This document shows positions 1 to 18,051 of a DNA stretch of 21,379 nt, piece after piece. Below the pieces are notes generated by a model. It was not told the DNA's origin, searched no databases, and was given only the letters and a program-made list of their open reading frames with translations. Positions within the stretch are counted from its first letter, which is position 1. Each line of letters begins with the position of its first letter. Position numbers and translations under genes: made by a program. This DNA comes from Gallionella sp. (GTDB lineage: Bacteria > Pseudomonadota > Gammaproteobacteria > Burkholderiales > Gallionellaceae): NCBI GenBank assembly GCA_030690245.1, contig JAUYGW010000347.1, forward strand, positions 1-21,379, written 5' to 3'.

Positions 1-817
1 CATCCCGCCGCGCACGTCTTACCAAGGTTTCTTTGTGTGCCATGATCAAAAAAAGATCATCGAAAGATTTTAATTGATCATACTTCAGGCTTTTGCCCAA
101 TACCTGCAGCTGTTGCACGGCTTGGACAGTCGGGCAGTTGCGCTGGTATGCGGTCAGCTGCCGGAAAAAGTTTCCACCAATAAGCGTTTCCTGCCGGGCC
201 TTGCGCACAATCGCGCAGATGTCATCGGAAAACTGAAGGGACTTAACGCTCGCCTGCTTATCAAGATCGTCAATTTCAAGCAGCAGAGCGTCAAATGTAT
301 TTATGCCAGCCATATTGGCTGTCATCAAGCTTGGTATGCGCAGATAAGCGTAAATGCCATAGCAGCCGCTTATGATTACGACCATCATCAAAGCATAGGC
401 TAAAGTATGAACATTCCACCCAAACTGAAAGCCGGTATGCAGCGTAGCCAGCACGACGAGTGCTATTCCCAGATAGGTGTGAGCAGAAAGCCAGCCCTGA
501 AGCGTTGCACCATGATGCCGCAACCAATTCGCTTGGCGTTTTCGACGGTCTGGAACATCCTGCTGCATCGATGGAGTATTTGATGAGTTTCGCCGTTCGG
601 TGCGTATTGACGGCAACCGCTTGCGTACCCCGTACAGAGTCAGCACGACGACGATGAGTGCCGATAAAATCCCAAATATATAACCCAGCCAGGAGCCGCC
701 GTATGCACCCATCTCGGGCTGATCGAATAAATAAGCCAATACGGCAGCAATCATCAGCAGGCTGGCGATTTTAAAGTAGCGATAATTTTTGTACTCCAGC
801 AATGTGCTGTGCTGCAT
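1..817 (-). CDS. Heme-b-like membrane protein, partial (C-terminus beyond left edge)
   Basis: An uninterrupted reading frame runs from an ATG at 815-817 to the left edge (272 codons, no stop seen), so only the N-terminal part is visible. It starts 26 bases after the stop of the flavin/ferredoxin fusion gene, which implies one operon. I see about four hydrophobic segments (roughly residues 15-31, 43-63, 108-128 and 137-158). Histidines at 113 (SAHTYLG), 127 (LHTGF) and 137 lie at or in the last two, the arrangement expected of heme-b ligands in cytochrome-b/ferric-reductase-like proteins. After residue 160 comes a soluble stretch ending in a basic run (HKETLVRRARRD). With its neighbour it probably moves electrons through the inner membrane. 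The family is not firmly recognised and heme binding is inferred. An AGGA lies about 12 bases before the start. Confidence 0.72.
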   Translation of the reverse strand, partial: MQHSTLLEYKNYRYFKIASLLMIAAVLAYLFDQPEMGAYGGSWLGYIFGILSALIVVVLTLYGVRKRLPSIRTERRNSSNTPSMQQDVPDRRKRQANWLRHHGATLQGWLSAHTYLGIALVVLATLHTGFQFGWNVHTLAYALMMVVIISGCYGIYAYLRIPSLMTANMAGINTFDALLLEIDDLDKQASVKSLQFSDDICAIVRKARQETLIGGNFFRQLTAYQRNCPTVQAVQQLQVLGKSLKYDQLKSFDDLFLIMAHKETLVRRARRD

Positions 818-843
818 ATCGTTTCGATCCTGAATTGTTATGT

Positions 844-3261
844 TTATTCCAATGAGGAAGAGTTGTCACGCATCGTCAGGGAAAGCGCTTCTGGGCTGAT
901 GCGTATGGCCGCTCCAGTCGGGCATGACCGGACGCAGGCTGGCCCCATTGCATTATCCTTGCACAAGTCGCACTTGATTGCCTTCTTGGGTAAATCATCA
1001 CCAGAAATGCGGTTTTTCTCGCCTTGATAAGCACCGCCCGTCAGGGCTTGCCATAAGCCCGGTTTTTTGAACTTTGGATTAACCGCCACCATCTGGATAG
1101 CATCGTAGGGGCAGTTGCTTTTGCAATTGCCGCAGCTAATACAGCCGTCTGCAATGTATACCTCACCGTTGACCGATCTGTGGATAACATTAGGCGGGCA
1201 ATCCAGCATGCAATAGGGATGCTCGCAATGGCGGCATGATGTGGGTAAATGAATGTGGCCGTGCGTGGGACCGGCTTCACGGTTAAAAAGTGGGGTGCCA
1301 TGGTGCGTGTTTGCGCAGGCAGTTTCGCAATTATTGCAACGGATGCAAAGTGAATAATCGATCAACAATACATCCGTTGCTTCGCCAACACCCTGCTGAA
1401 TAAGGAAAGTGAATAGATTGTCAGGCTTGCTTTGAGGCTCGAGCATTTTTTCATCGTGAGCATTTTCGCGGTAGCGTGCGGCGAAAAAATCACGCAGTTC
1501 TGCATTGCGCTCCAGCACCGCAATAGCCACCGGGGCCTTGAGTAAGACAACTTCGGTTTCTGAGGCGGCACGGACTGTGGCTGAACGCGGTTTATCCGAG
1601 ATAAGCGCCATTTCGCCAACATAATTGCCCGCAACGACAAAAGATAACGCATCCTCTTTGCCGCCTATCATTCGGGAAATCATCACCGAGCCGCGCCGGA
1701 TCAGATACAACCCGTCAGCTTTATCGCCTTGATGAAATAAAACATCCCCGGCTTTATATCGCTGGATCGTTGCACCCTGCAATAAATAGTTCAATTCATG
1801 TTCGGGGAGCGTGTTGGTCAGGCAGTTGCGTACTACCCGTTTCATCGATACTTCGTCGAGTTTTCGACGCACAGACTCTGCGGAATTAATCAATTTAAGC
1901 ATCGAGCGACGCGGCGTTTCGATCAGCACGCAATTTGTTATTGCCTTAATGGTGGCGGATCTGCGGCGTCCGGATATCAGCCCCATTTCACCAAAGAAAT
2001 TCCCCGCTTTAATCTGAAAATAAATTTCACTGCCATCCTTGGCTTTAACAAGAACAGCAAGCTCGCCTTCTAAAATTGAAAAAAAACTACTGGTGTAATC
2101 ATCGTATTTGAAAATGATTTCATCCGGCTGGGGGGTCAGAATATTGCTTTCGAGCAGAAGCTCGCGCAGTTGCAGTGCGGTAAGGCCGGCTAATATAGGC
2201 GCATTGCGCCGGATAAGGGCGAGCCCTTCACGCACTGAGCATGACGCATCGAAGCTGGAGATTTTTTGTTTGAGGAGCGGCTCATCCGCCGGTTCGACCG
2301 GATTTCCGAGGATATATTCGATCACCTCGTAACCATGGTTCAAAGCCTGCTTGATAAGCGGGCAGCCACCGAGCGTCCCGATAATATAGAGGCCCGGCAC
2401 ATTCGACTCGTACTGTTCGGATAATTCCGGCGCCGTAGTTATATCGCTGTTGGAGAATTTTACGCCAAAGCTTTCCAGCAGTTTGCGTGGCGGGCTAGCG
2501 CCAAGGCGCGCAATAACACGATGGCAGGGAATGATCTCAATGCCTTCAGAAGTTTTTGCAACCACCCTCAGCAAGTAACCGATTTCCGTCTCGCTGTCGA
2601 TGAAGTCGATACTGGAGTTGACGCGGGGTTCAATTCGGCCTGCCTTGATGGCAGCTTGCAGCAGGTTGAAGTTGCCCTCTTTGCAGCGGCTGAATTCTTC
2701 CTCGCGATTGATCAGGATCACCCGGTTCTGCTGTGCGAGCGCGAGCGCATTTTCCACGCCGGCATCCCCGCCACCCACAACCACGATGGTTTCGTCTTTA
2801 AACTCTTCCGGATCGTCGAGATGATATTGCACGGTCGGCAAATCTTCGCCCGGAACCCCCAGTTTGTGTATGTTGCCCTGAAGCCCAATCGCAAGAACTA
2901 CAAACTCGGCATCTATGGGTTGCCCGGAGGATAAAGTGACCTGAAAGTGGCCGCGCTCGCCTGTTATTCCGTTAACCTGTGCGCCCAGGCGCAGGTTAAT
3001 CTTATGCCTCTGGATATCTTCATGCCATAGGGTAAGAATGTTTTCGCGAGTCCCCGCAGCAAACGTCATCGGGCTTCGCAGCGGCAGCACCGCAGGTTCA
3101 GCCATGACGAGCTTGCCTTTTTGATATTTGTGTATAGTGTTGGCGGGATGCTGCGCAGCTTCCAGCAGAACATGCGAGATTCCCAGTTCGGCAGCATGTG
3201 CAGCAGCAGACAGGCCTGCTGGCCCCGCGCCAATGATTGCAATCTTGAATTTTTCAGTCAT
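844..3261 (-). CDS. Flavoprotein-(cNMP-binding)x2-polyferredoxin fusion oxidoreductase
   Basis: The 805-residue protein has four parts. Residues 1-320 resemble a thioredoxin-reductase-like pyridine nucleotide oxidoreductase: FAD motif GAGPAG at 11-16, NAD(P) motif GGGDAG at 163-168, and a second FAD-type motif near 293 (GLYIIGTLGG). Two cyclic-nucleotide-binding (CAP_ED) domains follow, with phosphate-cassette motifs FGEMGLIS...RRSAT (423-437) and VGEMALIS...PRSAT (548-562). Both keep the Glu and Arg used to bind cyclic nucleotides. The C-terminus is HybA/NrfC-like, with four cysteine quartets (639/642/645/649, 676/679/684/688, 707/710/713/717, 764/767/776/780), enough for four [4Fe-4S] clusters. 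No signal peptide is seen, so it should act in the cytoplasm, passing electrons between NAD(P)H, flavin and the clusters under ligand control. It lies directly upstream of a heme-b-like membrane protein, its likely partner. Domain assignment is confident; substrate and ligand are unknown. Confidence 0.9.
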   Translation of the reverse strand: MTEKFKIAIIGAGPAGLSAAAHAAELGISHVLLEAAQHPANTIHKYQKGKLVMAEPAVLPLRSPMTFAAGTRENILTLWHEDIQRHKINLRLGAQVNGITGERGHFQVTLSSGQPIDAEFVVLAIGLQGNIHKLGVPGEDLPTVQYHLDDPEEFKDETIVVVGGGDAGVENALALAQQNRVILINREEEFSRCKEGNFNLLQAAIKAGRIEPRVNSSIDFIDSETEIGYLLRVVAKTSEGIEIIPCHRVIARLGASPPRKLLESFGVKFSNSDITTAPELSEQYESNVPGLYIIGTLGGCPLIKQALNHGYEVIEYILGNPVEPADEPLLKQKISSFDASCSVREGLALIRRNAPILAGLTALQLRELLLESNILTPQPDEIIFKYDDYTSSFFSILEGELAVLVKAKDGSEIYFQIKAGNFFGEMGLISGRRRSATIKAITNCVLIETPRRSMLKLINSAESVRRKLDEVSMKRVVRNCLTNTLPEHELNYLLQGATIQRYKAGDVLFHQGDKADGLYLIRRGSVMISRMIGGKEDALSFVVAGNYVGEMALISDKPRSATVRAASETEVVLLKAPVAIAVLERNAELRDFFAARYRENAHDEKMLEPQSKPDNLFTFLIQQGVGEATDVLLIDYSLCIRCNNCETACANTHHGTPLFNREAGPTHGHIHLPTSCRHCEHPYCMLDCPPNVIHRSVNGEVYIADGCISCGNCKSNCPYDAIQMVAVNPKFKKPGLWQALTGGAYQGEKNRISGDDLPKKAIKCDLCKDNAMGPACVRSCPTGAAIRISPEALSLTMRDNSSSLE

Positions 3262-3306
3262 TAGCTATTTATGCTGGCAGTTTTTAGGCGTAATTTACCA
3301 TAGCCG

Positions 3307-3327
3307 ATATATTGTATTTCAATATAT
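3307..3327. promoter_or_regulatory. Perfect palindrome in divergent control region (candidate operator)
   Basis: Two 8-base arms, ATATATTG (3307-3314) and CAATATAT (3320-3327), form a perfect inverted repeat with a 5-base spacer. It lies 46 bases upstream of the fusion oxidoreductase start and 168 bases upstream of the SHP-like cytochrome. Dyads of this size are typical dimeric-regulator sites, but it does not match the FNR/CRP spacing, so the regulator is unknown. A second, weaker dyad (GCTTGAA 3359-3365 / TTCAAGC 3376-3382) lies nearby. Confidence 0.4.
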
Positions 3328-3403
3328 GCAAATATGTCTTTTGGCACATCGGGATGAAGCTTGAAATTTACCGCGTTCAAGCAAGCTTGTTGCCAAGCTA
3401 GTG

Positions 3404-3433
3404 TTGACATAGTTATATACACTCATGTACATT
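3404..3433 (+). promoter_or_regulatory. Candidate sigma-70 promoter for the SHP-like cytochrome
   Basis: A consensus -35 box TTGACA (3404-3409) is followed after 18 bases by TACATT (3428-3433; four of six match). The cytochrome start is 61 bases further on, with a very strong ribosome site AGGAGGGG at 3478-3485, nine bases before ATG. The -35 box is convincing and the -10 only fair. Confidence 0.45.
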
Positions 3434-3494
3434 CACCTATGTAGTACAAACTCAACGAAATACAAACTTAACTCCTTAGGAGGGGCTTTAAAAA

Positions 3495-3914
3495 ATGCGT
3501 AAATTTGCTTATGTTCTGCTTGCAGTTCTCGGCTTTTTCAGTCTGCCTGTTCAAGCGGATGTTGATGGTGCAAAACAATTCGTTAAACAGTATGCGGCTC
3601 TCGTCAAAGGAGTGAATCCTTCTTACGTTTTGAATGCGGAAGCGGGGCGAGCGTTTTACATCAAAAAACATACTGTGAAAGGCAAAGAGGTTGCTTGCAC
3701 AGATTGCCATGGCGATAATCCTGCTGCTGTTGGCAAGCATTCAGAAACCAAGAAGAAAATCGCTTCCCTTTCTCCTGCGGTCAACCCCAAGCGTTTCTCG
3801 AATCTGAAAAAGACCGAAGAAACATTCGATATTCATTGCAATGATATCCTCGAAAGAAACTGTACGTCGCAGGAAAAAGGCGATTACATAGTTTACATAT
3901 TGTCGATTAAGTAA
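3495..3914 (+). CDS. DUF1924 / SHP-like monoheme cytochrome c
   Basis: A 139-residue exported monoheme cytochrome. A Sec signal peptide covers residues 1-21 (ends PVQA), and the heme motif CTDCH is at 68-72. The segment NPKRFSNLKK (97-106) and the final CNDILERNC...EKGDY (115-130) match the DUF1924 family, which includes Rhodobacter sphaeroides heme protein (SHP). In SHP the sixth iron ligand is an asparagine in a disulfide-closed loop, and the site binds oxygen or NO. Here C115 and C123 enclose N116 and N122, so the same design is likely. Length is normal for the family. The protein should sit in the periplasm and act as an electron carrier or small-ligand binder. It is divergent from the fusion oxidoreductase and is probably a functional partner. 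Family assignment is confident; the exact ligand residue is inferred. Confidence 0.88.
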   Translation: MRKFAYVLLAVLGFFSLPVQADVDGAKQFVKQYAALVKGVNPSYVLNAEAGRAFYIKKHTVKGKEVACTDCHGDNPAAVGKHSETKKKIASLSPAVNPKRFSNLKKTEETFDIHCNDILERNCTSQEKGDYIVYILSIK

Positions 3915-3934
3915 ATTAGCGGTAGGTGCTAAAG

Positions 3935-3970
3935 AACAGCCCACATTTTTGTGGGCTGTTTTGTTTTTTT
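3935..3970 (+). terminator. Rho-independent terminator after SHP-like cytochrome
   Basis: A 10-base perfect stem AACAGCCCAC (3935-3944) / GTGGGCTGTT (3951-3960), extendable by one A-T pair over a TTTT loop, is followed by a T-rich tail to 3970. It lies 20 bases after the cytochrome stop and marks that gene as a single transcription unit. Confidence 0.92.
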
Positions 3971-4021: not shown

Positions 4022-4387
4022 ATGGTTACTTTGCCGGAATTGAAGCAGGTTTTCGATAATCTCGACGAGGGGATAGTTTTTATTGATCAAGACCGTCGCA
4101 TTGTGGCAATCAATGAAGCGGCTAGCCGCATGCTGGGGCAGGATAGCGACGCTATCCTGAATAAGCTTTGCCCAACTCTTTTTCAGGGCACGGATTGCGC
4201 GAGAGATTGCGAAAAGAGCGATCATTGCACGCTTATGGTGGAAACCAAGCAAGAAAGAAAGTTTCAAGACCTTGTCGTACGGCGACCGGACGGCGCATTG
4301 GTTCAGATGCGCATGTGGGCCATCGTGCTGCCCTCCAAAGGACCATCGAAGCACTGCGCTGTGGTATTGCGTGGGACGAATTGGTGA
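4022..4387 (+). CDS. Free-standing PAS-domain protein with cysteine cluster
   Basis: A 121-residue protein that is essentially one PAS domain. The opening (LPELKQVFDNLDEGIVFID, then RRIVAINEAASRMLG at 26-39) and the end (VVRRPDGALVQMRMWAIVL) are typical. A cysteine cluster C50-x8-C59-x3-C63-x5-C69 is inserted in the middle; similar Cys-bearing PAS domains occur at the N-terminus of some sigma-54 activators, where a metal or redox role has been suggested. There is no output domain: the frame closes at 4387, and I see no continuation in another frame before the convergent cusA end at 4487. The ribosome site is weak (GGAG about 12 bases before ATG). It could be a small redox or metal sensor acting on a partner, or a remnant of a larger regulator. 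The domain call is confident; function is unknown. Confidence 0.72.
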   Translation: MVTLPELKQVFDNLDEGIVFIDQDRRIVAINEAASRMLGQDSDAILNKLCPTLFQGTDCARDCEKSDHCTLMVETKQERKFQDLVVRRPDGALVQMRMWAIVLPSKGPSKHCAVVLRGTNW

Positions 4388-4486: not shown

Positions 4487-7400
4487 TCAAGACTGATTTT
4501 CCGGCAAGCTCCTTTCCTGCCACCATGCGTAGATGACGGGAATGACGATAAGGGAGAGCAGTGGCGCGCTAATCATGCCGCCCACCAGGGGTGCGGCAAT
4601 CCGCTTCATCACATCGGCGCCGGTGCCGGAGCTGACCATCACCGGAATCAACCCGGCCACGATCACCGATACCGTCATGATTTTCGGGCGGATGCGCGAC
4701 AACGCGCCATCAATAATGGCAAGCTGCAAATTCTGGTAGTTTACCGGCCGGCCGGACTGGCGCAGTTCCGCGATGGCCTGGTCCAGATAGAGCAGCATCA
4801 CCACGCCGAACTCGGCCGCCACACCGGCCAGCGCGATAAACCCGACCGCGACCGCGACCGACAAGTGATAATCCAGCCAGTACACCAGCCAGAAGCCGCC
4901 CGCCAAGGAGAACGGCAGGCACAGCAGCACCAGCAGCACTTTTCCGCTATGGCGGAAATTCAAATAAAGCAGCGCCACTACCAGCAGCAGCGTGAGCGGT
5001 ATCACCCACATGAAGCGTTCCTTGGCATGCTGCAGGCTGGCGTATTGCCCTGACCAGGCGATGGCGTAGCCCGGTTGCAGCTCGACGGCTTTGGCCACTG
5101 CGGCCTGCGCGTCGGCTATATAACCGCCCAGGTCGCGCCCAGCGAAATCCAGATAAACATAGGCCACCAGGCGGCCATTTTCGCTTTTGATCTCGACCGG
5201 GCCATCATTCACGCTTATCTTTGCGATTGTCCCCAGCGATACTTGCGCGCCGGAAGGCGTCATGATGCGGCTGGACGCAAGCGCGGTGAGCGAATCGCGG
5301 AAAGCGCGCTGATAGCGCAGGTTGATCGGGAAGCGATTGCGACCCTCGATTACCATGTCGATATTTTCTCCGCCGATGGCGCCCTGCACCAGGCGCTGTA
5401 CATCGGCTGCGGTAACGCCGTAACGCGCCGCTTGCTCACGATCCAGCGCAATATCCACGTAGCGCCCGCCGGAAGCGCGGTCGGCGAAAGCGTTGCGCGT
5501 GCCCGGCACGGAACTTTTTATCGCCTCTTCAATTTGCATGGCCAATGCGCTGATGCCGGCAAGATCCGGGCCGGTAACCTTGACGCCCAGCGGTGTGCGG
5601 ATACCGGTGGACAGCATGTCTATGCGCGTGCGGATCGGATACCCCCAGGAATTGGTCAGCCCCGGCAGGCGTACCTGGCTGTCCAGCTTGTGGATCAACT
5701 CCTCCATGGTTTCGCCGTCCGGCCACTGTTCGCGCGGTTTGAGCAGAATCGTGGTTTCCAGCATCGAAAGCGGCGCCGGGTCGGTGGCGGAATTGGCGCG
5801 CCCTGCCTTGCCGAACACGCGCTCGACCTCGGGCATTTGCGCGATCAGGCGATCGGTGATTTGCAGAATATTCGCCGCCTCATCTATCGATACGCCGGGC
5901 AGGGTGGTGGGCATATAAAGCAGGTCGCCCTCATTGAGCGGCGGCATGAACTCGCTGCCCAGTTTTGCAAGCGGCCAGGCGGCGCTCAGCAAAAATATCA
6001 GGCAGAGCGACAGCGCAAGCTTGCGTTTTTGCAGCGCGGCCATCAGCACCGGGCGGTAAAGCGCATGCAGCAGCCGGTTCAGCGGGTTGTTTTGCTCGCG
6101 GGTGATGCGCCCGCGGATAAAATAACCCATCAGCACCGGAGCCAAAGTAATCGCGAGCGCCGCACTTGCGGCCATCGCATAAGTCTTGGTGTAGGCGAGC
6201 GGAGCGAACAGCTTACCCGCCTGTCCGGTGAGCGTCAGCACCGGCAGAAAGGATACGGTGATGATCAGCAGCGAAAAGAATAAGGCCGGCCCGACCTCGA
6301 GCGCGCTCTGGGCGGTGACTTTCCAGTAGTCGGGTTTGTCTCCGGCGCGCTCCAGATGCTTGTGCATGTTCTCGATCATCACTACCGCGGCATCCACCAT
6401 CGCGCCGATGGCGATGGCAATGCCGCCCAGCGACATGATGTTGGCGGTTATGCCCTGGTTTTCCATGATGATGAAAGCGGCCAGAATGCCGATCGGCAGC
6501 GTGACTACCGCCACCAATGAGGAACGCAGGTGGAATAAAAATGCGAGGCATACCAGGGTGACGATGAGCGATTCCTCGACCAGTTTTTCGCCCAAGGTTT
6601 TGATGGCGCGGTTGATGACCCCGGAACGGTCATAAGTGACCACCAGCTCGATGCCGGGCGGCAGCCCGCCCTGCAATTCCTTCAATCGCTCCTTGACGCG
6701 CATGATGGTCTTGAGCGCGTTTTCGCCATAGCGCATGATGATGATGCCGCCGGTCACTTCGCCTTGACCGTCCAGATCGGTCACACCGCGGCGCAATTCG
6801 TGCCCGATCTGAATTTGCGCGACATCTTCCAGGCGGATGGGCACCCCCTGTGCGTTGGTCGCCAACGGAATGCGCCGGAAGTCATCCAGGTTCTTCAAAT
6901 AATTCTGTGCGCGCACGACATATTCGGCCCGCCCCATTTCCATCACCGAGCCGCCGCCCGCCATATTGCTGTCGCGGATCGCCTGCTCGACGCTTTCCAG
7001 GCTCAGGTTGTACGCAGCCAGCCGGTTGGGGTTCACTTCGATCTGGAATTGCCGCACCATGCCGCCGATGCTGGCGACTTCGGCCACGCCCGGCAGGCTT
7101 TGCAATTCATATTTGAGGAAGAAATCCTGCACTGCGCGCAATTGGTCGGCATCGTAGCGGTGATGGCGATCCACCAGCGCGTATTCGAACACCCAGCCTA
7201 CGCCCGAGGCGTCCGGCCCCAGCGTAGGGATGACGCCCCGCGGCAGACGGTCTTCAATCTGGCTTATGTACTCCAGCACGCGCGAGCGCGCCCAGTAGGG
7301 GTCTATGCCGTCCTGGAAAATCACATACACATAGGATTCGCCGAACATCGAAAAGCCGCGCACCGCAGTCGAACCCGGCACCGACAGCAGCTCGGAAGTA

Positions 7401-7606
7401 AGCGGAAAAGTGACCTGGTCTTCGACTACCTGCGGCGGTTGGCCCGGGTAAGCGGTTTTGACGATAACTTGAACGTCGGAAAGATCGGGAATGGCGTCCA
7501 GTGCCATATTGCGCGCGGAATAGATTCCCCATCCTGCCACCAACACTGCGCCCAGCAGCACCAGGATGCGGTTTTTCAGCGACCATTTGATGATGCGTGC
7601 AATCAT
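4487..7606 (-). CDS. cusA: CusA-type Cu(I)/Ag(I) RND efflux pump
   Basis: A 1039-residue heavy-metal-efflux RND transporter of the inner membrane (E. coli CusA is 1047). The three methionines of the CusA periplasmic metal site are all present at a constant offset of eight: M565 (LLYMPTT), M615 (LSMLETT) and M664 (IDMLSTGI), corresponding to M573, M623 and M672. The proton-relay motif GAMVDAAVVMIEN (401-413) keeps D405. Membrane helices occur near 13-31, around 345-500 and toward the C-terminus, with two large periplasmic loops. The methionine triad argues for monovalent copper or silver rather than the Zn/Co/Cd substrates of CzcA. It follows cusB by 72 bases on the same strand and forms an operon with it. 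No outer-membrane factor is visible on the downstream side within this window. Confidence 0.95.
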   Translation of the reverse strand: MIARIIKWSLKNRILVLLGAVLVAGWGIYSARNMALDAIPDLSDVQVIVKTAYPGQPPQVVEDQVTFPLTSELLSVPGSTAVRGFSMFGESYVYVIFQDGIDPYWARSRVLEYISQIEDRLPRGVIPTLGPDASGVGWVFEYALVDRHHRYDADQLRAVQDFFLKYELQSLPGVAEVASIGGMVRQFQIEVNPNRLAAYNLSLESVEQAIRDSNMAGGGSVMEMGRAEYVVRAQNYLKNLDDFRRIPLATNAQGVPIRLEDVAQIQIGHELRRGVTDLDGQGEVTGGIIIMRYGENALKTIMRVKERLKELQGGLPPGIELVVTYDRSGVINRAIKTLGEKLVEESLIVTLVCLAFLFHLRSSLVAVVTLPIGILAAFIIMENQGITANIMSLGGIAIAIGAMVDAAVVMIENMHKHLERAGDKPDYWKVTAQSALEVGPALFFSLLIITVSFLPVLTLTGQAGKLFAPLAYTKTYAMAASAALAITLAPVLMGYFIRGRITREQNNPLNRLLHALYRPVLMAALQKRKLALSLCLIFLLSAAWPLAKLGSEFMPPLNEGDLLYMPTTLPGVSIDEAANILQITDRLIAQMPEVERVFGKAGRANSATDPAPLSMLETTILLKPREQWPDGETMEELIHKLDSQVRLPGLTNSWGYPIRTRIDMLSTGIRTPLGVKVTGPDLAGISALAMQIEEAIKSSVPGTRNAFADRASGGRYVDIALDREQAARYGVTAADVQRLVQGAIGGENIDMVIEGRNRFPINLRYQRAFRDSLTALASSRIMTPSGAQVSLGTIAKISVNDGPVEIKSENGRLVAYVYLDFAGRDLGGYIADAQAAVAKAVELQPGYAIAWSGQYASLQHAKERFMWVIPLTLLLVVALLYLNFRHSGKVLLVLLCLPFSLAGGFWLVYWLDYHLSVAVAVGFIALAGVAAEFGVVMLLYLDQAIAELRQSGRPVNYQNLQLAIIDGALSRIRPKIMTVSVIVAGLIPVMVSSGTGADVMKRIAAPLVGGMISAPLLSLIVIPVIYAWWQERSLPENQS

Positions 7607-7678
7607 GCTTCAGTCCAAAGGTTCTTCGCACCCCACGCGCGAGGGATTGGTGTTCCTTCGCGGCAAAATCTTTTGCGC

Positions 7679-9085
7679 TTAGTGTTCGCCTGCATCGTGG
7701 CTGTCATGCATGCGCTGTGCGGCATCGCTCATCGATGCCGCAGCATCCAACAGGAATTGCCCGTTTACCGCAACCTGGTCGCCGGCTTGCAGACCGGCGG
7801 TGATTTCAATCGAATCGACGGTTTCAATCCCGGTTTCCACTTGGGCCGGCGTGAAATGCCCTTCGCCCCCGGCCAGCATCACCCAATCGCCTTTGCCGGT
7901 GCGCATTACCGCCGAGCGGGGCACGGCAAGCGCCTTGTGCGGCTTGGCGTGGATGATGACGTCAAGAAATGAGCCTATGAGCAACTGGTTCCTGGGATTG
8001 TCGACGCTCAGGCGCGCCTGTACGGTGCGCGTCGCGCTGTCGACCACCGGGTTGATAAATTGCAGGCGCGCCTTGATTTCCGGCGCGCCGGACTTCGGCA
8101 GCTTCAACGTCACTTTGTCGCCATTTTTTACCCAGGCCAGTTGATCGGGAAAAAGCGGCACATCGACCCAGACCCGCGACAGGTTGGTGAAAGAAAACAG
8201 CCTGTCCATCGGTTTGATTGCGCTGCCTTCTCGAACCTCGATCCTGGTGACGAAACCGGATTGCGGGGCGCGGACTTCAATCACTTCTCTTGTCCGGTAG
8301 CTTGTATTGAGTTCCTCGATCAGATGACCGACATCGAAATACTGAAATTTTTCGGTGTAGAGGTTGCGCTTTTTCGCATTCATCTGAATTTCCATCATCT
8401 CGCTCTCGGTCATCGAATAGTCGGGGTTCGTATGCGCGTCTTCGGCGTTCATCGGAACCATGAGCCGGTCTTTCTCCTTGATCAAGTCGACGTATTCGAA
8501 TTGGATCTTAAGCAATTCGGGGGAATATATTTCGTAAATCACCTGCCCTTCCTCGACCTTTTGGCCGACCGAATTTATATGGAGTTTTTTGATGACTCCT
8601 TCGAGTTTCGAGCTGAGATTGAAAATCAGGCTTTCATCGGCAACCACGTTGCCATAGGCGTGGATGTCCTGGCTCAGTGTTCGCCATTCGGCGGTGGCCA
8701 AACGCACCCCCAGCCTTTGCTGCGAAGCGGTGTCGATCTGCACGCCATGGCTATGTTCGGGCTGCGATGTGCCCAGCTGATCCATTTCCACCAGATCCAT
8801 ACCGCAAATCGGGCACAGTTCACCCGGCTGATCCCGGATAACCTGGGGATGCATGGGGCATACCCAGAGTTTTTTTGCCGGCTTTGTCGAAGTTTGGCTG
8901 TCGGCGGTTATTGGATCGAGGCTTGAATGGGCCTCAGGAGCGTTGCCGCCAAGCTGGCTTGCCGGATGGCCAAGGTAGAAATATCCAATAGTGGCCAGGA
9001 TTGCGATTGCCCCTGCGCCCAGCCACCACTTTGCATGCTTGGATGCAAACATATCGAGCCATCGTTTTTTTTCAGGCCTGGTCAT
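7679..9085 (-). CDS. cusB: CusB-type periplasmic adaptor with heavy-metal-binding domain
   Basis: A 468-residue membrane fusion protein. A single N-terminal anchor (residues 20-39) leads to a heavy-metal-binding domain with CPMHP (76-80) and CPICGM (91-96). The usual barrel-sandwich hybrid, helical hairpin and beta-barrel regions follow (for example GFVTRIEVREGSAIKP, then LSRVWVDVPLFPDQL). It links CusA to an outer-membrane channel and may hand over Cu(I) or Ag(I). I chose the ATG at 9085; an in-frame TTG at 9106 adds seven residues but has no better ribosome site. The CPMHP/CPICGM module is found in many, but not all, CusB homologues and is absent from the E. coli protein. The C-terminus is His-rich (HDSHDAGEH). 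It is first in the cusBA order, 58 bases downstream of a small secreted Cys-rich protein. Confidence 0.93.
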   Translation of the reverse strand: MTRPEKKRWLDMFASKHAKWWLGAGAIAILATIGYFYLGHPASQLGGNAPEAHSSLDPITADSQTSTKPAKKLWVCPMHPQVIRDQPGELCPICGMDLVEMDQLGTSQPEHSHGVQIDTASQQRLGVRLATAEWRTLSQDIHAYGNVVADESLIFNLSSKLEGVIKKLHINSVGQKVEEGQVIYEIYSPELLKIQFEYVDLIKEKDRLMVPMNAEDAHTNPDYSMTESEMMEIQMNAKKRNLYTEKFQYFDVGHLIEELNTSYRTREVIEVRAPQSGFVTRIEVREGSAIKPMDRLFSFTNLSRVWVDVPLFPDQLAWVKNGDKVTLKLPKSGAPEIKARLQFINPVVDSATRTVQARLSVDNPRNQLLIGSFLDVIIHAKPHKALAVPRSAVMRTGKGDWVMLAGGEGHFTPAQVETGIETVDSIEITAGLQAGDQVAVNGQFLLDAAASMSDAAQRMHDSHDAGEH

Positions 9086-9143
9086 TTTTGTATATTGATC
9101 CGGCAACCGTAGATTGGTTTAAGAAATTAGTCGTGGATTAATA

Positions 9144-9763: not shown

Positions 9764-10372
9764 ATGGGTCATCCGGTTTTTTTCGATGCGGTACCAAAGA
9801 TCAGTTTGTACGACCCGTTGGCCGAAGTTCTCGGCGCAGCGGAAGACGGAATTCTGCAATACGGCTATTTTGATGCGGTGCGGTTGGCCGGCCACTCCTG
9901 TCCGACGGTAGCCTCGGCCTATTGGCTGACCTACAAGGCCTTGGCTTCGCTCTATCCCGATGCAATGCCGGAGCGCGGCGATATTCTGGTGGAGTTCGAC
10001 CAGGACAGCACCAGCGGCGTGACGGGCGTGATCGCGAATGTTGTGAACATGTTGACCGGCGCCACGGCAGATACTGGTTTCAAGGGGCTTGCCGGGCGCT
10101 TTAACCGGTGCGACCGGTTGTTTTTTTCGGTGGAAATGCCCGGAGAAATGCGTTTCACCCGCCTCGACACAAACCGGGCCGTGACTGTGGCGGCCAACCT
10201 GCAGCGCGTCCCGGCTTCGCCGCGCATGTCGCCGCTGATAGGGAGTTGCCTCGCAAACAGGGCAACCCCGGAAGAAACTGCCGAGTTCAGGCAGCTATGG
10301 CAGGAACGGGTGCGCAGCATTCTGCTGGATCATGGAGATGATCCGGAAGTCTTTGTCGTAATACCCGCTTGA
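9764..10372 (+). CDS. FmdE-family protein
   Basis: A 202-residue protein of the FmdE (formylmethanofuran dehydrogenase subunit E-like) family. The hallmark GHSCP at 43-47 supplies a Cys/His metal site. The sequence then follows the family pattern: PERGDILVEF, TGVIANVVNMLTGAT, and TGFKGLAGRFNRCDRLFF (about residues 105-122). Bacterial members outside methanogens are mostly uncharacterised and have been linked to metal or redox cofactor handling, not to methanofuran. No signal peptide, so cytoplasmic. The hemerythrin-like gene follows after seven bases, so the two form an operon. An AAGG lies about ten bases before the ATG. The 278 bases upstream hold no convincing gene or promoter. Family is confident; reaction unknown. 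Confidence 0.85.
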   Translation: MGHPVFFDAVPKISLYDPLAEVLGAAEDGILQYGYFDAVRLAGHSCPTVASAYWLTYKALASLYPDAMPERGDILVEFDQDSTSGVTGVIANVVNMLTGATADTGFKGLAGRFNRCDRLFFSVEMPGEMRFTRLDTNRAVTVAANLQRVPASPRMSPLIGSCLANRATPEETAEFRQLWQERVRSILLDHGDDPEVFVVIPA

Positions 10373-10379
10373 GCATCCC

Positions 10380-10763
10380 ATGAAACGAATCCCAGCCCTG
10401 CAACCCCTGTCGCGTGAACATCACACCGCCCTTACCCTGGCAAAAGCCTGCGAGCGAGCGGCACAATCGCGCGATGAAGAACGGATAGCCAAGACCTGCC
10501 AGCGCGTAATTCAGGCCTTTTCCGCTGAGCTGGAACCGCACTTTCAGCTTGAGGAGCAGTCGTTGTTGCCGCTGTTGCGTAGCGCCGGAAACACGCCGCT
10601 CGAGGAGCGCACCCTGGAAGACCACCAACAGCTGCGCGCGCTGCTCGATGGTTTACAGCAAAATAATATCGAGGCATTGGGCAGCTTTGGCAAGCTCTTG
10701 TCGGCTCATGTCCGGTTTGAGGAAAGAGAGCTTTTTCCGGCGCTTGAAAGCCTGTTGCCGTAA
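10380..10763 (+). CDS. Hemerythrin-like HHE domain protein
   Basis: A 127-residue single-domain hemerythrin-like four-helix protein. The expected di-iron ligands can be read off: H14 or H15 (SREHHTAL), H54 and E58 (EPHFQLEE), H82 (LEDHQQL), H110 and E114 (SAHVRFEER). Such proteins bind O2 or NO, or act in iron storage or repair of damaged iron centres. No signal peptide, so cytoplasmic. It starts seven bases after the FmdE-family stop and is translationally close-coupled to it. It converges on the c5-type cytochrome genes. Role in this organism cannot be fixed from sequence; O2 or NO sensing or scavenging is plausible given the redox setting. Confidence 0.88.
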   Translation: MKRIPALQPLSREHHTALTLAKACERAAQSRDEERIAKTCQRVIQAFSAELEPHFQLEEQSLLPLLRSAGNTPLEERTLEDHQQLRALLDGLQQNNIEALGSFGKLLSAHVRFEERELFPALESLLP

Positions 10764-10861: not shown

Positions 10862-11311
10862 TCAATTTCCCCATTCCCAGCTCGGTATGGCATGCACAAC
10901 CATGTAGTCCACCGCCGCCTTGACCTCGTCCTCGGATAATCTGGCGTTAGAGCCGCGCGACGGCATGGAGCCTTTCTTGCCTATGTACCCGTTTATCGCG
11001 CGGTCATAGAGAACTTCGTTGCCTTGGGCAAGGCGCGCTTCCCAATCCTGCTTCTTGCCCAAACGCGGCGCCCCTTTCAATCCGGATTTATGGCAGATGC
11101 TGCAGGTGCCCTTGTACACCTTCTCGCCGGTTGCCAGGTCGGGGGCGGCTGCGACAGTCTGCGGTTTGACCTCATGCGGAGCAGAGAGTGGCTTCGGAGC
11201 GGCTGCCATGTCGGGAGTTGCTGTGGCGGGCACGGCAACTTCCTTGCCCTTACCGCCGCATCCGGAAAGGAGCGCGAGCGAGGCGATAACTATCAGTGTT
11301 TGTTTTTTCAT
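10862..11311 (-). CDS. c5-type cytochrome c lipoprotein
   Basis: A 149-residue exported cytochrome. The lipobox LLSGC ends at C18, so the protein should be membrane-anchored through a lipid. A flexible Ala/Pro-rich linker (about 22-58) leads to one cytochrome-c domain with CSICH at 70-74 and a likely axial methionine M116 (KGSMPSRG). The order GEKVYKGTCSICHKSG...GAPRLG...W..R...G...L and the final AAVDYMV are those of class I c5-type cytochromes. It is a periplasmic electron carrier. The paralogue next door shares most of the domain, which points to a tandem duplication; both are on the same strand, 19 bases apart (stop to ATG). Ribosome site AAGGA is about ten bases upstream. Redox partners unknown. 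Confidence 0.9.
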   Translation of the reverse strand: MKKQTLIVIASLALLSGCGGKGKEVAVPATATPDMAAAPKPLSAPHEVKPQTVAAAPDLATGEKVYKGTCSICHKSGLKGAPRLGKKQDWEARLAQGNEVLYDRAINGYIGKKGSMPSRGSNARLSEDEVKAAVDYMVVHAIPSWEWGN

Positions 11312-11330
11312 GTTGGCTGTAATCCTTCAG

Positions 11331-11759
11331 TTAGCGAATTGTAAATTGTTTGGTTGTCGCAGAAAACACCTGCGATCCGAACGGCCCATGCGGTTTTGGC
11401 ATGGAATACCACACCATATAGTCCACCGCCGCCTTGACCTCGTCCTCGGATAATTTGGCGTTCGAGCCGCGCGACGGCATGGAACCCTTGCTGCCTCGGT
11501 ATCCCTTTATGGCATGGACATAAAGAATTTCATTGCCTTGCGCGAGGCGCAACGCCCAGTCCTCCTGGTCACCCAGGCGGGGCGCACCTTTCAACCCGAG
11601 CCGATGGCAAATGCTGCAGGTGTTCCTGTAGACCTTTTCACCGGTTGATATTTTTCCCGGCAATTCGGCGGCGGACGGCGCGGTCACTTCAACTTCCCGG
11701 CCGTCGCACCCGGAAAGAAGCGCAAGCAATGCGCTAACCGCCAATACCCGTTTTTGCAT
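11331..11759 (-). CDS. c5-type cytochrome c lipoprotein, tandem paralogue
   Basis: A 142-residue paralogue of the adjacent cytochrome. From the ATG at 11759 the signal is a compact lipoprotein leader (MQKRVLAVSALLALLSGC, lipidated C18). Another in-frame ATG at 11774 adds five residues; neither has a good ribosome site. CSICH lies at 48-52 and the probable axial Met at 94 in GSMPSRG. Compared with its neighbour it has a much shorter linker and a longer C-terminal tail (about 22 residues after the last conserved helix). It is first in the two-gene operon. The shared stretch SRGSNA(K/R)LSEDEVKAAVDYMV is nearly identical at DNA level, showing a recent duplication or gene conversion. Confidence 0.88.
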   Translation of the reverse strand: MQKRVLAVSALLALLSGCDGREVEVTAPSAAELPGKISTGEKVYRNTCSICHRLGLKGAPRLGDQEDWALRLAQGNEILYVHAIKGYRGSKGSMPSRGSNAKLSEDEVKAAVDYMVWYSMPKPHGPFGSQVFSATTKQFTIR

Positions 11760-11990
11760 GACTGCGTTACCCATTGGAAAACAGAAGTGGCTGAAGAGCG
11801 ATGGGCATGATGTTCGCGGCGCGTGGCAAATATCTCTAAAGCCAGCGTGTCAGCGCCCATGCCAAGGCCGGAAATGAGACGCGATGAAATGCAACAAGTT
11901 CCACAACGGCTGCCGTTGAGCGGCCGAATATGCCTGAATCCATATTCCGTGGAGAGCCGGGGTATGGAATCAACGCGCCCAGAATTAGGC

Positions 11991-13459: not shown

Positions 13460-13579
13460 TTAGCGGGCGACTTCAAATGACTCGGGGAGGCGAAGTTTAC
13501 CGTGAGTCGCGGCAGGGTTCGACTCCGGCATTCAGGGGTAGTAATATATCCTTCGTAGTTCGGGACTTCTATGAGTGTT

Positions 13580-13599
13580 TGCGCAGTTTCTGCTGCGCA
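13580..13599 (+). other. Short hairpin just upstream of msrB ribosome site
   Basis: TGCGCAG (13580-13586) and CTGCGCA (13593-13599) form a perfect 7-base stem with a 6-base loop, ending five bases before the AGGAGG of msrB (13605-13610). It could influence translation or mRNA stability. Role is speculative. Confidence 0.3.
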
Positions 13600-13615
13600 T
13601 AATCAGGAGGATGCC

Positions 13616-14164
13616 ATGGATAGACGTTCATTCATCAGGCTCGCAGCCGGCGGTGCCGGTGCGCTGGCATTGTCGAGGTTCCTCATGGCGGGGCAGGCCA
13701 TCGCCGCCGAGCGCATCGCGAAACTCAGCAAGAGCGATGCGGAATGGAAGCGACTGCTCACACCCGAACAATATGAGGTACTGCGCCGGGAAGGCACCGA
13801 GCGGCCGTATTCCAGCCCCCTCGACCGTGAAAAACGCAGCGGTATGTTCCTCTGCGCCGCCTGCGACCTGCCGCTGTTTCCCTCCAGGTTCAAATTCGAC
13901 AGCGGCACCGGCTGGCCGAGCTTCTACGACGTGCTGCCCGGCCGCGTCGAGACCAGGACCGACTACAAGCTGATCCTGCCGCGCACCGAATACCACTGCG
14001 CGCGCTGCGGCGGCCATCACGGCCACGTGTTCAAAGACGGCCCGAAACCCACCGGCCTGCGCTACTGCAACAACGGCGTGGCGCTGAAATTCGTGCCGGA
14101 CAAAGGATGGTACAAACTTGGGGAAGCAATTCAGCCACGGATTAACACAGATATTCACGGATAA
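13616..14164 (+). CDS. msrB: Tat-exported peptide-methionine (R)-S-oxide reductase MsrB
   Basis: A 182-residue MsrB with an N-terminal Tat signal (MDRRSFIRLAAGG, hydrophobic to about 31), so it repairs oxidised methionine in the periplasm. Start chosen at 13616, with AGGAGG five bases upstream; an ATG 45 bases earlier has no ribosome site and would bury the Tat motif. The domain shows the zinc cysteines C80/C83 (CAAC) and C128/C131 (CARC), the GTGWPSF loop (97-103), GGHHGHVF (132-139; the family usually has GGHLGHVF) and the catalytic cysteine C151 in RYCNNG. The last ten residues (PRINTDIHG and neighbours) are encoded by an intergenic repeat arm and are unlike the usual MsrB tail. dipZ follows after 59 bases and could supply reducing power. 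Confidence 0.93.
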   Translation: MDRRSFIRLAAGGAGALALSRFLMAGQAIAAERIAKLSKSDAEWKRLLTPEQYEVLRREGTERPYSSPLDREKRSGMFLCAACDLPLFPSRFKFDSGTGWPSFYDVLPGRVETRTDYKLILPRTEYHCARCGGHHGHVFKDGPKPTGLRYCNNGVALKFVPDKGWYKLGEAIQPRINTDIHG

Positions 14165-14205
14165 AACCGGTTCTAATCCGTGTTTCATCGGTGTTAATCC
14201 GTGGC
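14134..14205. repeat. Imperfect inverted repeat covering msrB stop
   Basis: Left arm 14134-14162 and right arm 14176-14205 share GCCACGGATTAACAC and CACGGAT, separated by a few unmatched bases, and can fold into a long hairpin with a loop of about 13 bases. This type of ATCCGTG/GTTAATCCGTGGC unit resembles an interspersed intergenic repeat seen in many environmental proteobacteria. The left arm encodes the msrB C-terminus and stop; the right arm ends 18 bases before the dipZ start. Confidence 0.7.
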
Positions 14206-14223
14206 TAATGTCAGGAGCCTAAA

Positions 14224-15870
14224 ATGAGCGTAATCGACATCGGCCTCGCGTTCCTCGAAGGCGTGGCGCTGATTGTCTCGCCCTGCATCCTGCCGGTGCT
14301 GCCGCTGGTGCTGGCCACCTCGGCCGGCGGCGGCAGGCGCAGGCCGTATGGCATCATTATCGGCTTCGTGCTGGCGTTCACCCTGTTCGCCCTCGCGGCG
14401 CGCCAGCTTGTTTCGCTGCTGGGCCTGGATCTCGACCTCGTCAAGAATACTTCGCTGGTGCTGCTCGCGCTGATGGGGCTGGTGCTGCTGTCGTCCAGGC
14501 TCTCGGAAAAATTCGGCGCGCTGACGCAGGGTCTGGCGAACCTCGGCAACGACCTCGCCGCGACCAAAGGGGAAGGCCTGCTCGGCGGCATCGCCATCGG
14601 CGCCTTGATCGGGCTGGTATGGACGCCGTGCGCGGGGCCGATCCTCGCCGCCATGCTGGTGCAGGTGATCCGCCAGCAGAGCGACCTGGCCGGCAACTTC
14701 GTCATCCTCTCGTTCGGCATCGGCGCGGGCGTGCCGATGCTCATCATCGCGCTGGCCGGGCGCAGGATCATGGGCAGGCTCGGATTCTTCGCCCGCCACG
14801 CCGAAGCCGTGCGCAAGGGTTTCGGCGTGCTCATCCTCCTGTCGGTCGCCTACATCGCTTCCGGCGCGGACATCGAGGCGCTGTTCATGCCGAAAGAAAC
14901 CGCCGAAGCGCCGCGCAGCGAGCTGGTGCTGCAGGAAGGCCTGGGCAGGCCCTATGCCGCGCCGGAATTCGCCGGGATCGAGGCGTGGCAGAACTCGGCG
15001 CCGCTCACCATGAAGGAGCTGCAAGGCAAGGTCGTGCTGATCGACTTCTGGACCTATTCCTGCATCAACTGCGTGCGCACCTTGCCCTATCTCACCGACT
15101 GGGACAAAAAATACCGCGATAGGGGGCTGGTGATCGTCGGCGTGCATTCGCCCGAGTTCGAGTTCGAAAAAAAGCCGGCCAACGTCCGGGACGCGATCGC
15201 GCAGCACGGCATCCGCTACCCCGTCGCGCTGGACAATAACCTTTCCACCTGGCTGAATTTTCATAACCGCTACTGGCCCGCGCATTACCTCATCGACCGG
15301 CAAGGCCGGGTGGTCTACACCCATTTCGGTGAGGGCAAATACAACGTCACGGAGAACAACATCCGCTACCTGCTCGGCCTGAAAGAGCAGGGCGAGACCA
15401 TCCAGGTCGAAGGCCCGGCGTTTGCGCCGGGGCAAACGCCGGAGACCTACCTCGGCTACGACAGGGCGGACAGCTTCGGCGGCAAGGAAAGCGTGATACG
15501 CGACGCACAGGGCGGCTACTGCTTTCCCTCCACCCTGTCGGCTGATGCATGGGCGCTGAACGGCACATGGCAGGTGGAACGCGAAAAGATCGTCGCGGGC
15601 GCGCAGGGCGCCGCGCTGCGCCTCAACTTCAAGGCACGCAAGGTGTTCCTGGTGCTCGGCACGGCCGGCGGCAAGCCGGTGCGTGTCACGCTCAAGCTCA
15701 ACGGCGAAGCGGTTGGAAACAATGCGGGCAAGGATGCGACGGCGGGCGTGGTCACCGTCGAGCGCAACACGCTGTATGAACTGATCGACCAGCAAAGCCC
15801 GAAGAACGGCCTGCTCGAAATCGAGACGGACGCGCCGGGGCTGGAGGCTTATGCGTTTACGTTCGGCTAG
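14224..15870 (+). CDS. dipZ: DipZ-like transmembrane thiol reductant carrier
   Basis: A 548-residue DipZ-type protein. Residues 1-215 form a CcdA/DsbD-like membrane domain of about six helices with the paired cysteines C21 (SPCILP) and C136 (TPCAGP) that carry electrons across the membrane. Residues 230-400 form a TlpA-like thioredoxin domain with C280-x2-C283 (YSCINC) in the periplasm. Residues 405-548 are the beta-rich C-terminal domain typical of DipZ (CBM-like). It should take electrons from cytoplasmic thioredoxin and pass them to periplasmic thiol enzymes. The ribosome site CAGGAG is eight bases upstream. Lying directly behind a Tat-exported MsrB, it is a plausible source of reductant for it. 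The gene is notably GC-rich. Confidence 0.92.
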   Translation: MSVIDIGLAFLEGVALIVSPCILPVLPLVLATSAGGGRRRPYGIIIGFVLAFTLFALAARQLVSLLGLDLDLVKNTSLVLLALMGLVLLSSRLSEKFGALTQGLANLGNDLAATKGEGLLGGIAIGALIGLVWTPCAGPILAAMLVQVIRQQSDLAGNFVILSFGIGAGVPMLIIALAGRRIMGRLGFFARHAEAVRKGFGVLILLSVAYIASGADIEALFMPKETAEAPRSELVLQEGLGRPYAAPEFAGIEAWQNSAPLTMKELQGKVVLIDFWTYSCINCVRTLPYLTDWDKKYRDRGLVIVGVHSPEFEFEKKPANVRDAIAQHGIRYPVALDNNLSTWLNFHNRYWPAHYLIDRQGRVVYTHFGEGKYNVTENNIRYLLGLKEQGETIQVEGPAFAPGQTPETYLGYDRADSFGGKESVIRDAQGGYCFPSTLSADAWALNGTWQVEREKIVAGAQGAALRLNFKARKVFLVLGTAGGKPVRVTLKLNGEAVGNNAGKDATAGVVTVERNTLYELIDQQSPKNGLLEIETDAPGLEAYAFTFG

Positions 15871-17633: not shown

Positions 17634-17767
17634 GTCTGCACCTCAGTCTCGCGCAAAAGTCAGTTTGGATTTTGGCATGGTAGCGTGAGGGCAAGGGAAA
17701 TTACTTCTGCACAGACGATAGGATTGCTTGAGTTCATTGCGAATTTGCTACTTCACAAACAGGCGCA

Positions 17768-17786
17768 ATGCGCATACCATGCGCAC
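17768..17786 (+). promoter_or_regulatory. Candidate CcdA operator: two phased palindromes
   Basis: ATGCGCAT (17768-17775) and ATGCGCAC (17779-17786) lie 11 bases apart, one helical turn, and just ahead of the ccdA ribosome site GGAGG. Ribbon-helix-helix antitoxins bind such repeated short palindromes to repress their own operon. The link to CcdA is inference. Confidence 0.4.
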
Positions 17787-17799
17787 ATGGAGGTTTCCC

Positions 17800-18051
17800 A
17801 TGAAATCAATGCAAAGCAACCAGGCACGCAAGCGTCCGGTCAACCTGACGCTCAATGAAGAATTGGTAACGCAGGCCAAAGGAATGACGAACAATCTCTC
17901 CGGTGTGGTCGAGCAGCTACTGGCCGATTACGTGATGAAACAGAACAACGTACGGCAAGAAAAAGCGCACCACGCCGAAGTGGCGGCAAAAGCGTGGAAT
18001 TCCTTTAACGAACGCTCCGGTTCGTTTGCCGACGAACACTCCACCCTGTAA
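17800..18051 (+). CDS. ccdA: CcdA-family antitoxin
   Basis: An 83-residue antitoxin. The N-terminal part (KRPVNLTLNEELVTQAK, 11-27) fits a ribbon-helix-helix DNA-binding domain; the C-terminal part has the CcdA toxin-binding signature AWNSFNERSGSFADE (65-79, compare GSFADEN in F-plasmid CcdA). Start chosen at 17800 because GGAGG lies six bases upstream; the frame is open 24 codons further but without support. It should neutralise CcdB and repress the operon. The stop overlaps the ccdB start by one base (TAATG), giving coupled translation. Confidence 0.93.
   Translation: MKSMQSNQARKRPVNLTLNEELVTQAKGMTNNLSGVVEQLLADYVMKQNNVRQEKAHHAEVAAKAWNSFNERSGSFADEHSTL

Follow-up and report, generated by a model that had tools for sequence, protein, structure and literature searches.

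Introduction

Known inner-membrane routes to periplasmic multihaem cytochromes are mostly quinol-driven. CbcL, CymA and ImcH are quinol oxidases in which membrane b haems or a membrane anchor feed a periplasmic multihaem c-type domain. NADPH oxidases and ferric reductases combine NAD(P)H and FAD on the cytosolic side with two b haems, held by two pairs of histidines, and transfer electrons outward. Here we describe a gene set that resembles parts of each, located at one end of a 21,379-nucleotide stretch of DNA from Gallionella sp. (contig JAUYGW010000347.1; the whole stretch is referred to as the window). Its first gene, FUS, encodes a protein with a flavin/NAD(P) domain, two cyclic-nucleotide (cNMP)-binding domains and an iron-sulfur (Fe-S) domain. 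The second, MEM, encodes a predicted dihaem b membrane protein, and the third a decahaem cytochrome with a forkhead-associated (FHA) domain. In the window, a gene for a small DUF1924 cytochrome, CYT, stands next to them. In contrast to CbcL, CymA and ImcH, the set has a flavo/Fe-S input protein that is fused to its partner or shares its operon. It differs from the NADPH oxidases in its Fe-S clusters and cNMP domains, its division over separate polypeptides, its decahaem receiver and its five hydrophobic helices.

A further likeness is to the operon that encodes SHP, a dihaem cytochrome b and a dihaem cytochrome c, since in both cases a DUF1924 cytochrome is linked to a (here predicted) membrane dihaem b protein and a multihaem c protein (PMC2909971; our statements on SHP refer to the accessible part of this paper). 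Electrons are proposed there to come from quinol (PMC2909971), whereas a flavo/Fe-S protein of the NAD(P)H type that carries cNMP domains appears to provide the input here. In addition, the c-type partner of SHP is a dihaem protein and its sixth haem ligand is Asn, whereas our set has an FHA-decahaem protein and a His at the sixth-ligand position. Across species, the sixth ligand of SHP is Asn in 33 of 42, Asp in five and His in four. The His-ligated homologue of Methylophilus methylotrophus, cytochrome c'', does not bind O2, and the dihaem c appears to be absent from this organism (PMC2909971). In a pyrite-growth transcriptome, the DUF1924 gene Alvin_0022 is among the most induced, together with dihaem c and cytochrome b561 genes (accessible part of PMC11267869). 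This set is SHP-type, and thus a parallel to the FUS-MEM-decahaem set and not evidence for it.

We found no description of the FUS-MEM-decahaem set in the accessible open-licence full-text literature (subscription papers lay outside the scope of the search), and its sole trace there is one line of a table. In the accessible part of a Gallionellaceae pangenome study, Table 1 lists a decahaem 'Forkhead-associated protein' (cluster 403, 10 motifs, 27 of 87 iron oxidisers) under 'Other' (PMC10734462). The entry gives neither partner genes nor a function, and the word Forkhead occurs once in the paper. Judged by domain make-up and host group, rather than by a comparison of sequences, cluster 403 is probably the third component of our set. 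The terms FHA, forkhead and cyclic nucleotide are absent from the main text of PMC8788666, as far as accessible. A Magnetospirillum cNMP-domain gene (PMC5459824, accessible part) could not be linked to the set and was not used. As far as our searches of the open-licence literature go, the parts are of known kinds and their assembly with two signal-type domains is undescribed.

A three-gene operon conserved across bacterial lineages

The window holds most of a widespread bacterial gene set, the operon of which consists of FUS, MEM and the FHA-decahaem gene. It is the entire contig C251 of the source genome, a 2.34-Mb assembly of 357 contigs that is 82.5% complete. FUS, MEM and CYT were all confirmed (Table 1), and the tight two-gene operon with a 26-base gap, which the original prediction had drawn from this DNA, is indeed present. 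The operon is divided by the assembly, as C251 ends at base 1 and the remainder lies on contig C352. Extension beyond the contig end, which had been suggested as a check, recovered more of MEM: the first bases of C352 encode its C-terminus, ending HAPLSIAFLTALITHIVAIFFYW, and about 13 residues are covered by neither contig. The decahaem gene follows directly (C352:80-1747) and its product is 87% identical to that of locus L026. A MEM shortened by mutation is therefore ruled out; it is the contig that ends, and on C352 the C-terminal part of MEM precedes the decahaem gene.

Relatives of FUS were fetched via FUS sequence patterns alone. From 142 confirmed stretches 80 were kept, 24 of which (L077-L100) match the cNMP part only and are excluded from every count. 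The locus counts below refer to the 56 FUS relatives L021-L076. Some redundancy exists between samples: L103, L104 and L108 repeat L026, L023 and L032, and some of the sampled genomes (G handles) are those of L loci. MEM lies directly downstream of FUS in 50 of the 56 loci, and 46 loci continue on the same strand with the decahaem gene, which argues that the layout is not due to chance. Two loci (L066, L067) stop before MEM could appear, the contig stops before the decahaem gene in three (L025, L043, L065), and one of the two copies in L024 lacks a decahaem gene of its own. In two Magnetococcales (L029, L032), FUS and MEM form a single open frame of 1123 and 1118 amino acids, in which FUS connects with that end of MEM for which a cytoplasmic location is predicted.

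Among 61 genomes of the genus (at most 16 candidates scored per genome in the FUS search), FUS occurs in 16 and the FHA-decahaem gene in the same 16; genomes of one genus are related, so these are not 16 independent events. In a sample of the phylum (397 genomes), FUS was found in 17 and the decahaem gene in all 17 plus G039, with two to three candidates scored per genome, so that match-free genomes may hide one. Over 18 loci, the distances of FUS, MEM and the decahaem protein correlate at 0.93-0.97, a result that shared ancestry alone could yield. The set was found in Gallionella, Brevundimonas, Erythrobacter, Magnetococcales and Acidobacteria, and the records include Brevundimonas denitrificans and Erythrobacter longus. 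The conserved neighbourhood on which the original prediction depended is thus kept across the locus, genus and phylum samples.

Two variants of the layout stand out. In L109 (G473:C41, 6089-17277), one same-strand run comprises a 5-haem gene, a 542-amino-acid gene, two tetrahaem genes, FUS, MEM and the FHA-decahaem gene, which is perhaps the fullest form of the system. L128 (G035:C186) and L129 (G059:C20) each combine a weak MEM-like match with a nearby one that covers the FAD part of FUS only (amino acids 4-266, ~1e-60). These may perhaps represent a distant two-gene cousin that lacks the cNMP and Fe-S domains.

Table 1. Positions in the window of FUS, MEM, CYT and their sequence features (aa, amino acids).
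Feature	Position	Strand	Basis
FUS, 805 aa: FAD/NAD(P) oxidoreductase domain, two cyclic-nucleotide-binding domains, 4x[4Fe-4S] domain	844..3261	-	Pfam, NCBIfam, PDB relatives, alignment of 32 relatives
FUS FAD/NAD(P)-binding domain, YpdA/thioredoxin-reductase-like, aa 5-306	2344..3249	-	Pyr_redox_2 5.8e-27
Phosphate-binding cassette of FUS cyclic-nucleotide domain 1, aa 424-437, GEMGLISGRRRSAT	1951..1992	-	G424, E425, R434 invariant 32/32
FUS cyclic-nucleotide-binding domain 2, aa 500-585	1507..1764	-	PF00027; G549, E550, R559 invariant 32/32
FUS HycB/DmsB-like ferredoxin domain, aa 632-785	907..1368	-	16 Cys for four [4Fe-4S], all invariant 32/32
FUS-MEM gap	818..843	-	26 nt between the two genes
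MEM, predicted dihaem b, first 272 of about 308 aa, cut by contig end	2..817	-	Hydrophobic segments, alignment, L026 model
First H-x13-H pair of MEM (His113, His127)	437..481	-	Invariant 41/41
CYT, DUF1924 monohaem cytochrome with CxxCH, c''-like	3495..3914	+	DUF1924 (PF09086) 3.6e-32
CYT His114, sixth haem ligand position (His in cytochrome c'', Asn in SHP 1dw0)	3834..3836	+	1e8e/1dw0 alignments
CYT sigma-70-like promoter, TTGACA-18-TACATT	3404..3433	+	3 such sites found vs 2.2 expected by chance; weak alone
Terminator-like hairpin after CYT, before PAS gene	3933..3962	+	13-pair stem then T run; 1 found vs 1.4 expected by chance

Architecture of the three proteins

The alignments comprise 32 FUS, 41 MEM and 23 decahaem sequences. 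Pfam recognises Pyr_redox_2/3, two cNMP_binding stretches (PF00027, 1.8e-40 for the whole protein) and 4Fe-4S domains in FUS. The PDB relatives follow the same division, with YpdA-type reductases, regulatory domains of cGMP/cAMP-dependent kinases and HycB-type ferredoxin subunits matching successive regions. The cNMP domains are thus placed between the FAD domain and the Fe-S domain. Both carry intact ligand-site motifs, the phosphate-binding GE...R being present in each of the two domains in 32/32 sequences, and are predicted to bind a ligand. A role of FUS as the bacillithiol disulfide reductase YpdA was considered and ruled out. The NCBIfam equivalog TIGR04018 scores 127.3 bits against a cut-off of 339.9. 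Furthermore, amino acid 15, in the first glycine-rich loop, is where we take YpdA to have its redox Cys; FUS of the window has Ala there, as do 25 of the 32 relatives, with Gly in four and Ser in three.

MEM has hydrophobic segments at about residues 14-32, 43-61, 108-126, 132-161 and 281-299, and the loops that follow helices two and four are rich in Arg/Lys. In the simplest topology, the N-terminus would lie inside and, after five helices, the C-terminus outside; the helices that carry the His pairs would therefore be parallel, with one haem near each face of the membrane. Of the two H-x13-H pairs, H113/H127 is encoded in the window and H286/H300 on C352 of the source genome. All four histidines are invariant in 41/41 relatives, so that the haem-ligand-like histidines noticed in the truncated gene extend to two complete pairs in the full-length protein. 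Lying in hydrophobic segments, the pairs fit two b haems, and haem binding is predicted. In NADPH oxidases, too, two b haems are located between two helices that each carry a His pair, and H113/H127 and H286/H300 of MEM reproduce this pattern at the level of sequence. Neither the MEM profile nor the MEM model gave a sequence or fold match in the PDB to the NADPH oxidase/ferric reductase family. In a PDB sequence search, MEM alone reached a best E of 0.38 and the MEM profile nothing below 0.04; NCBIfam gave nothing above cut-off. The profile matches at least 2827 proteins at E <= 1e-5 among 7997 scored. Nearly all of the 120 matches listed are unnamed or called 'hypothetical protein', and some UniRef entries of the family carry the name 'Ferric reductase like transmembrane component'. 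An AlphaFold2 model of the full-length relative from L026 has a predicted local distance difference test score (pLDDT) of 85.5.

The third protein has an FHA domain at its N-terminus, followed by a single transmembrane helix (143-161 in L026) and ten haem sites. In the Gallionella relatives, these sites comprise nine CxxCH motifs and one C-x4-CH. Beyond the haem motifs, nine His are invariant in 23/23 sequences and a tenth is kept in 21/23; with ten extra His for ten haems, bis-His ligation would fit. In the FHA domain, the PDB relatives of which include GarA, G32 and R33 (the GR motif) and H50 are conserved in at least 90% of the 23. The Acidobacteria proteins have an extra transmembrane stretch and an additional C-terminal FHA domain with an S-x-x-H motif (S-K-R-H). 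The AlphaFold2 model of the decahaem protein (mean pLDDT 60) is good only for the FHA domain, with residues 1-113 at high confidence, and the helix. The dihaem cytochrome c expected as a partner did not materialise: the open reading frame lists of L021-L026 contain no dihaem gene, and the membrane-anchored FHA-decahaem protein takes this place.

A proposed electron route and its alternatives

Taken together, we propose that FUS, MEM and the decahaem protein probably form a three-part, gated electron conduit in the inner membrane that leads from NAD(P)H to the periplasm; its direction, ligand and final acceptor are those that we infer. NAD(P)H would reduce the FAD of FUS in the cytoplasm, and electrons would then pass over the four [4Fe-4S] clusters to the inner and on to the outer b haem of MEM. 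Such a path through a flavin/ferredoxin fusion with sensor domains was already part of the original prediction, and the domains and invariant residues support it. From the outer b haem, electrons would reach the periplasmic decahaem domain and then a soluble or outer partner, which may be the c''-like cytochrome in our locus and, in many other lineages, a decahaem protein with LVIVD repeats. A cyclic nucleotide, once bound, may move the domains that lie between FAD and the Fe-S clusters and thereby gate the flow, while the FHA domain may dock a cytoplasmic regulator on the same complex. Candidates for the final acceptor are the c''-like cytochrome, surface LVIVD decahaems, and periplasmic repair or maturation. 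More tentatively, and doubtful as it stands, the complex could be a doubly controlled electron valve, which would connect the periplasm or the cell surface with the NAD(P)H pool and open in response to a second messenger via the cNMP domains and to a phosphorylation or docking signal via the FHA domain.

The neighbours of the set, scanned in 74 loci that are partly duplicates and overlap between tools, speak for a gated conduit in that they include cytochrome c maturation genes, cNMP-phosphodiesterase-like genes and other multihaem genes. An LVIVD-repeat decahaem protein occurs in 23 of these loci and a c554-like tetrahaem protein in eight. A metallophosphoesterase resembling cyclic-nucleotide phosphodiesterases, scoring below the NCBIfam cut-offs for SpdA and CpdA, is found in 12, and in six loci it follows directly after the decahaem gene (L044, L053, L055, L058, L073, L116). 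A class III cyclase domain lies beside FUS in one locus (L031).

The LVIVD protein (L034:1485-5288 and relatives) is a secreted-looking protein of 1,270-1,430 amino acids with 10 haem motifs and LVIVD repeats, which recurs near the system in many lineages. It partly matches ExtM, a cytochrome of a selenite/tellurite operon, and is described nowhere in the open-licence literature searched. None was found in the 61 genus genomes; as this search had no positive control, the absence is likely only.

Several observations weigh against a single gated conduit. No Pfam family matches MEM above cut-off (PF01292, 0.005), and the MEM model has no fold match in the PDB by Foldseek or VIA-align, as 0/44 Foldseek matches reach E <= 0.001 and those obtained reflect general helical arrangements only. 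The Ser of the canonical FHA motif S-x-x-H, which contacts the phosphate, is kept in only four of 23 decahaem proteins (18 have another residue, Asn in L026, and one a gap), which makes classical phosphothreonine binding uncertain. Class III cyclases occur in 59/61 genus genomes and therefore do not track the system; the four matches in the source genome imply that a ligand could be made, without singling out the system. Finally, the genes are at times separated. FUS has no adjacent MEM in L031, L034, L035 and L068, the genomes of which hold MEM elsewhere. G039 has MEM and a decahaem gene (without FHA) but no FUS match at E <= 1e-20, and G058 and G037 hold MEM and the decahaem gene away from a FUS that is encoded elsewhere in the genome. 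The parts can thus work apart or with other donors.

As to direction, we regard outward flow as the likelier of the two: it runs along the membrane potential, and Erythrobacter, Brevundimonas and Acidobacteria have the set as well. To our knowledge, some hosts of the set are not recognised as iron oxidisers. An inward conduit, in which electrons from the periplasm, donated for example by Fe(II), travel via the decahaem protein and the b haems to FUS and there reduce NAD(P)+ or an acceptor in the cytoplasm, would suit the source genome, which belongs to a group rich in Fe(II) oxidisers and has Ferrigenium and Gallionella records among its nearest loci. It would also suit the FHA decahaem found in 27/87 iron oxidisers (PMC10734462, Table 1, accessible part). 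We nevertheless consider it unlikely: the flow would oppose the membrane potential, Fe(II) is too weak a donor for NAD+ by established bioenergetics, the set is present in only 16/61 genus genomes, and its hosts extend to Brevundimonas, Erythrobacter and Acidobacteria.

The separated genes described above could also mean that MEM and the decahaem protein work together as a module linked to quinol, similar to CbcL or CymA, which FUS joins only sometimes as a separate regulator or reductase. MEM with a decahaem gene but no adjacent FUS (G037, G039, G058) and FUS without adjacent MEM (the four loci named) are what such a module would leave behind. However, all 17 FUS genomes of the phylum sample have the decahaem gene, FUS-MEM fusions exist, and the four genomes with a separated FUS still hold MEM, which renders this reading quite improbable.

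The set might finally serve cytochrome c maturation or periplasmic repair by supplying reductant for haem or thiols outside the membrane. A CcmF homologue is indeed present in 21/74 loci, often divergent from FUS, and in L044 and L053 ccmH-type TPR genes stand beside it. The loci recur in part between tools, a single family (Caulobacteraceae) contributes many of them, and multihaem genes may adjoin ccm genes simply through needing them. No ccm gene stands next to the operon in the window, and we hold a role in maturation or repair to be very unlikely.

The DUF1924 cytochrome as a local partner

CYT matches cytochrome c'' (PDB 1e8e) at 1.6e-25 over residues 22-137 and SHP (1dw0) at 2.6e-13. Its HCNDILERNC aligns with HCNDILGADC of 1e8e, so that both the His of the sixth ligand and the following Cys of the disulfide pair are shared with the M. 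methylotrophus protein. We know of no operon partner of such a kind for cytochrome c'' in M. methylotrophus. A His occupies the sixth-ligand position in 12/12 operon-linked CYT sequences aligned. The proposed SHP-like cytochrome therefore holds up as a DUF1924 protein linked to the operon but not as a typical SHP, which is ruled out by His in place of Asn. A role in O2 or NO reduction or detoxification, which had been suggested along with it, finds no support beyond the DUF1924 family name, because CYT has the His ligand and its His-ligated homologue does not bind O2 (PMC2909971, accessible part).

CYT is a local partner, in Gallionella and Magnetococcales, of a core set that is much wider. 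Of the 16 genomes in the genus that have FUS, 14 carry CYT beside the operon, seven of them divergently upstream, six convergently downstream and one (G065) between two copies. The exceptions are G079, where CYT lies 160 kb from the operon, and G020, which has only a distant DUF1924 copy. That CYT is an unrelated neighbour is suggested by its presence near FUS in only 9/56 loci, its not being found near the operon in the Alphaproteobacteria and Acidobacteria loci, and DUF1924 paralogues in 46/61 genus genomes, and yet is hardly probable given close copies (E < 1e-30) in 15/16 FUS genomes against 0/45 others, the adjacency in 14, and CYT next to FUS in two Magnetococcales. In L036 and L037 (Gammaproteobacteria), a different small monohaem cytochrome is divergent from FUS.

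The TTGACA of the CYT promoter is kept in 5/5 intergenic regions aligned. Behind CYT, past the terminator-like hairpin, the window encodes a small PAS-domain protein with several Cys (4022-4387, +), a possible redox sensor. The PAS gene stands beside CYT in five of the 56 FUS loci (L021, L022, L023, L025, L026).

Other genes in the window

A CusA/CusB-type heavy-metal efflux pair (4487-9106, -) is identified by ACR_tran (2e-229) and HlyD_D23 with a heavy-metal-binding domain. It is followed by an FmdE-like protein (PF02663, 4e-6) and then a hemerythrin-domain protein (9764-10763, +), and by two similar tandem monohaem cytochromes resembling cbb3 subunit III (10862-11774, -). A methionine sulfoxide reductase (SelR) adjoins a DsbD-like thioredoxin-fusion protein (13571-15870, +), forming a periplasmic repair pair. 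Toxin-antitoxin pairs lie at 17728-18380 (+) and 19520-20118 (-), one being CcdA/CcdB and the second RelE/RelB-like by eye.

Implications

A conserved NAD(P)H-linked route controlled by cyclic nucleotides and an FHA domain would place electron output directly under second-messenger signalling, and would be a new target for studies of iron oxidisers and extracellular electron transfer. The set would explain the decahaem protein left under 'Other' in the iron-oxidiser survey (PMC10734462, accessible part), and the DUF1924 cytochromes of these bacteria gain a concrete, testable partner. If the doubly controlled valve proves true, FUS, MEM and the decahaem protein would constitute a general transmembrane electron-transfer system across Proteobacteria, Magnetococcales and Acidobacteria, with exchangeable outer partners in the form of a c''-like cytochrome or an LVIVD-repeat decahaem protein.

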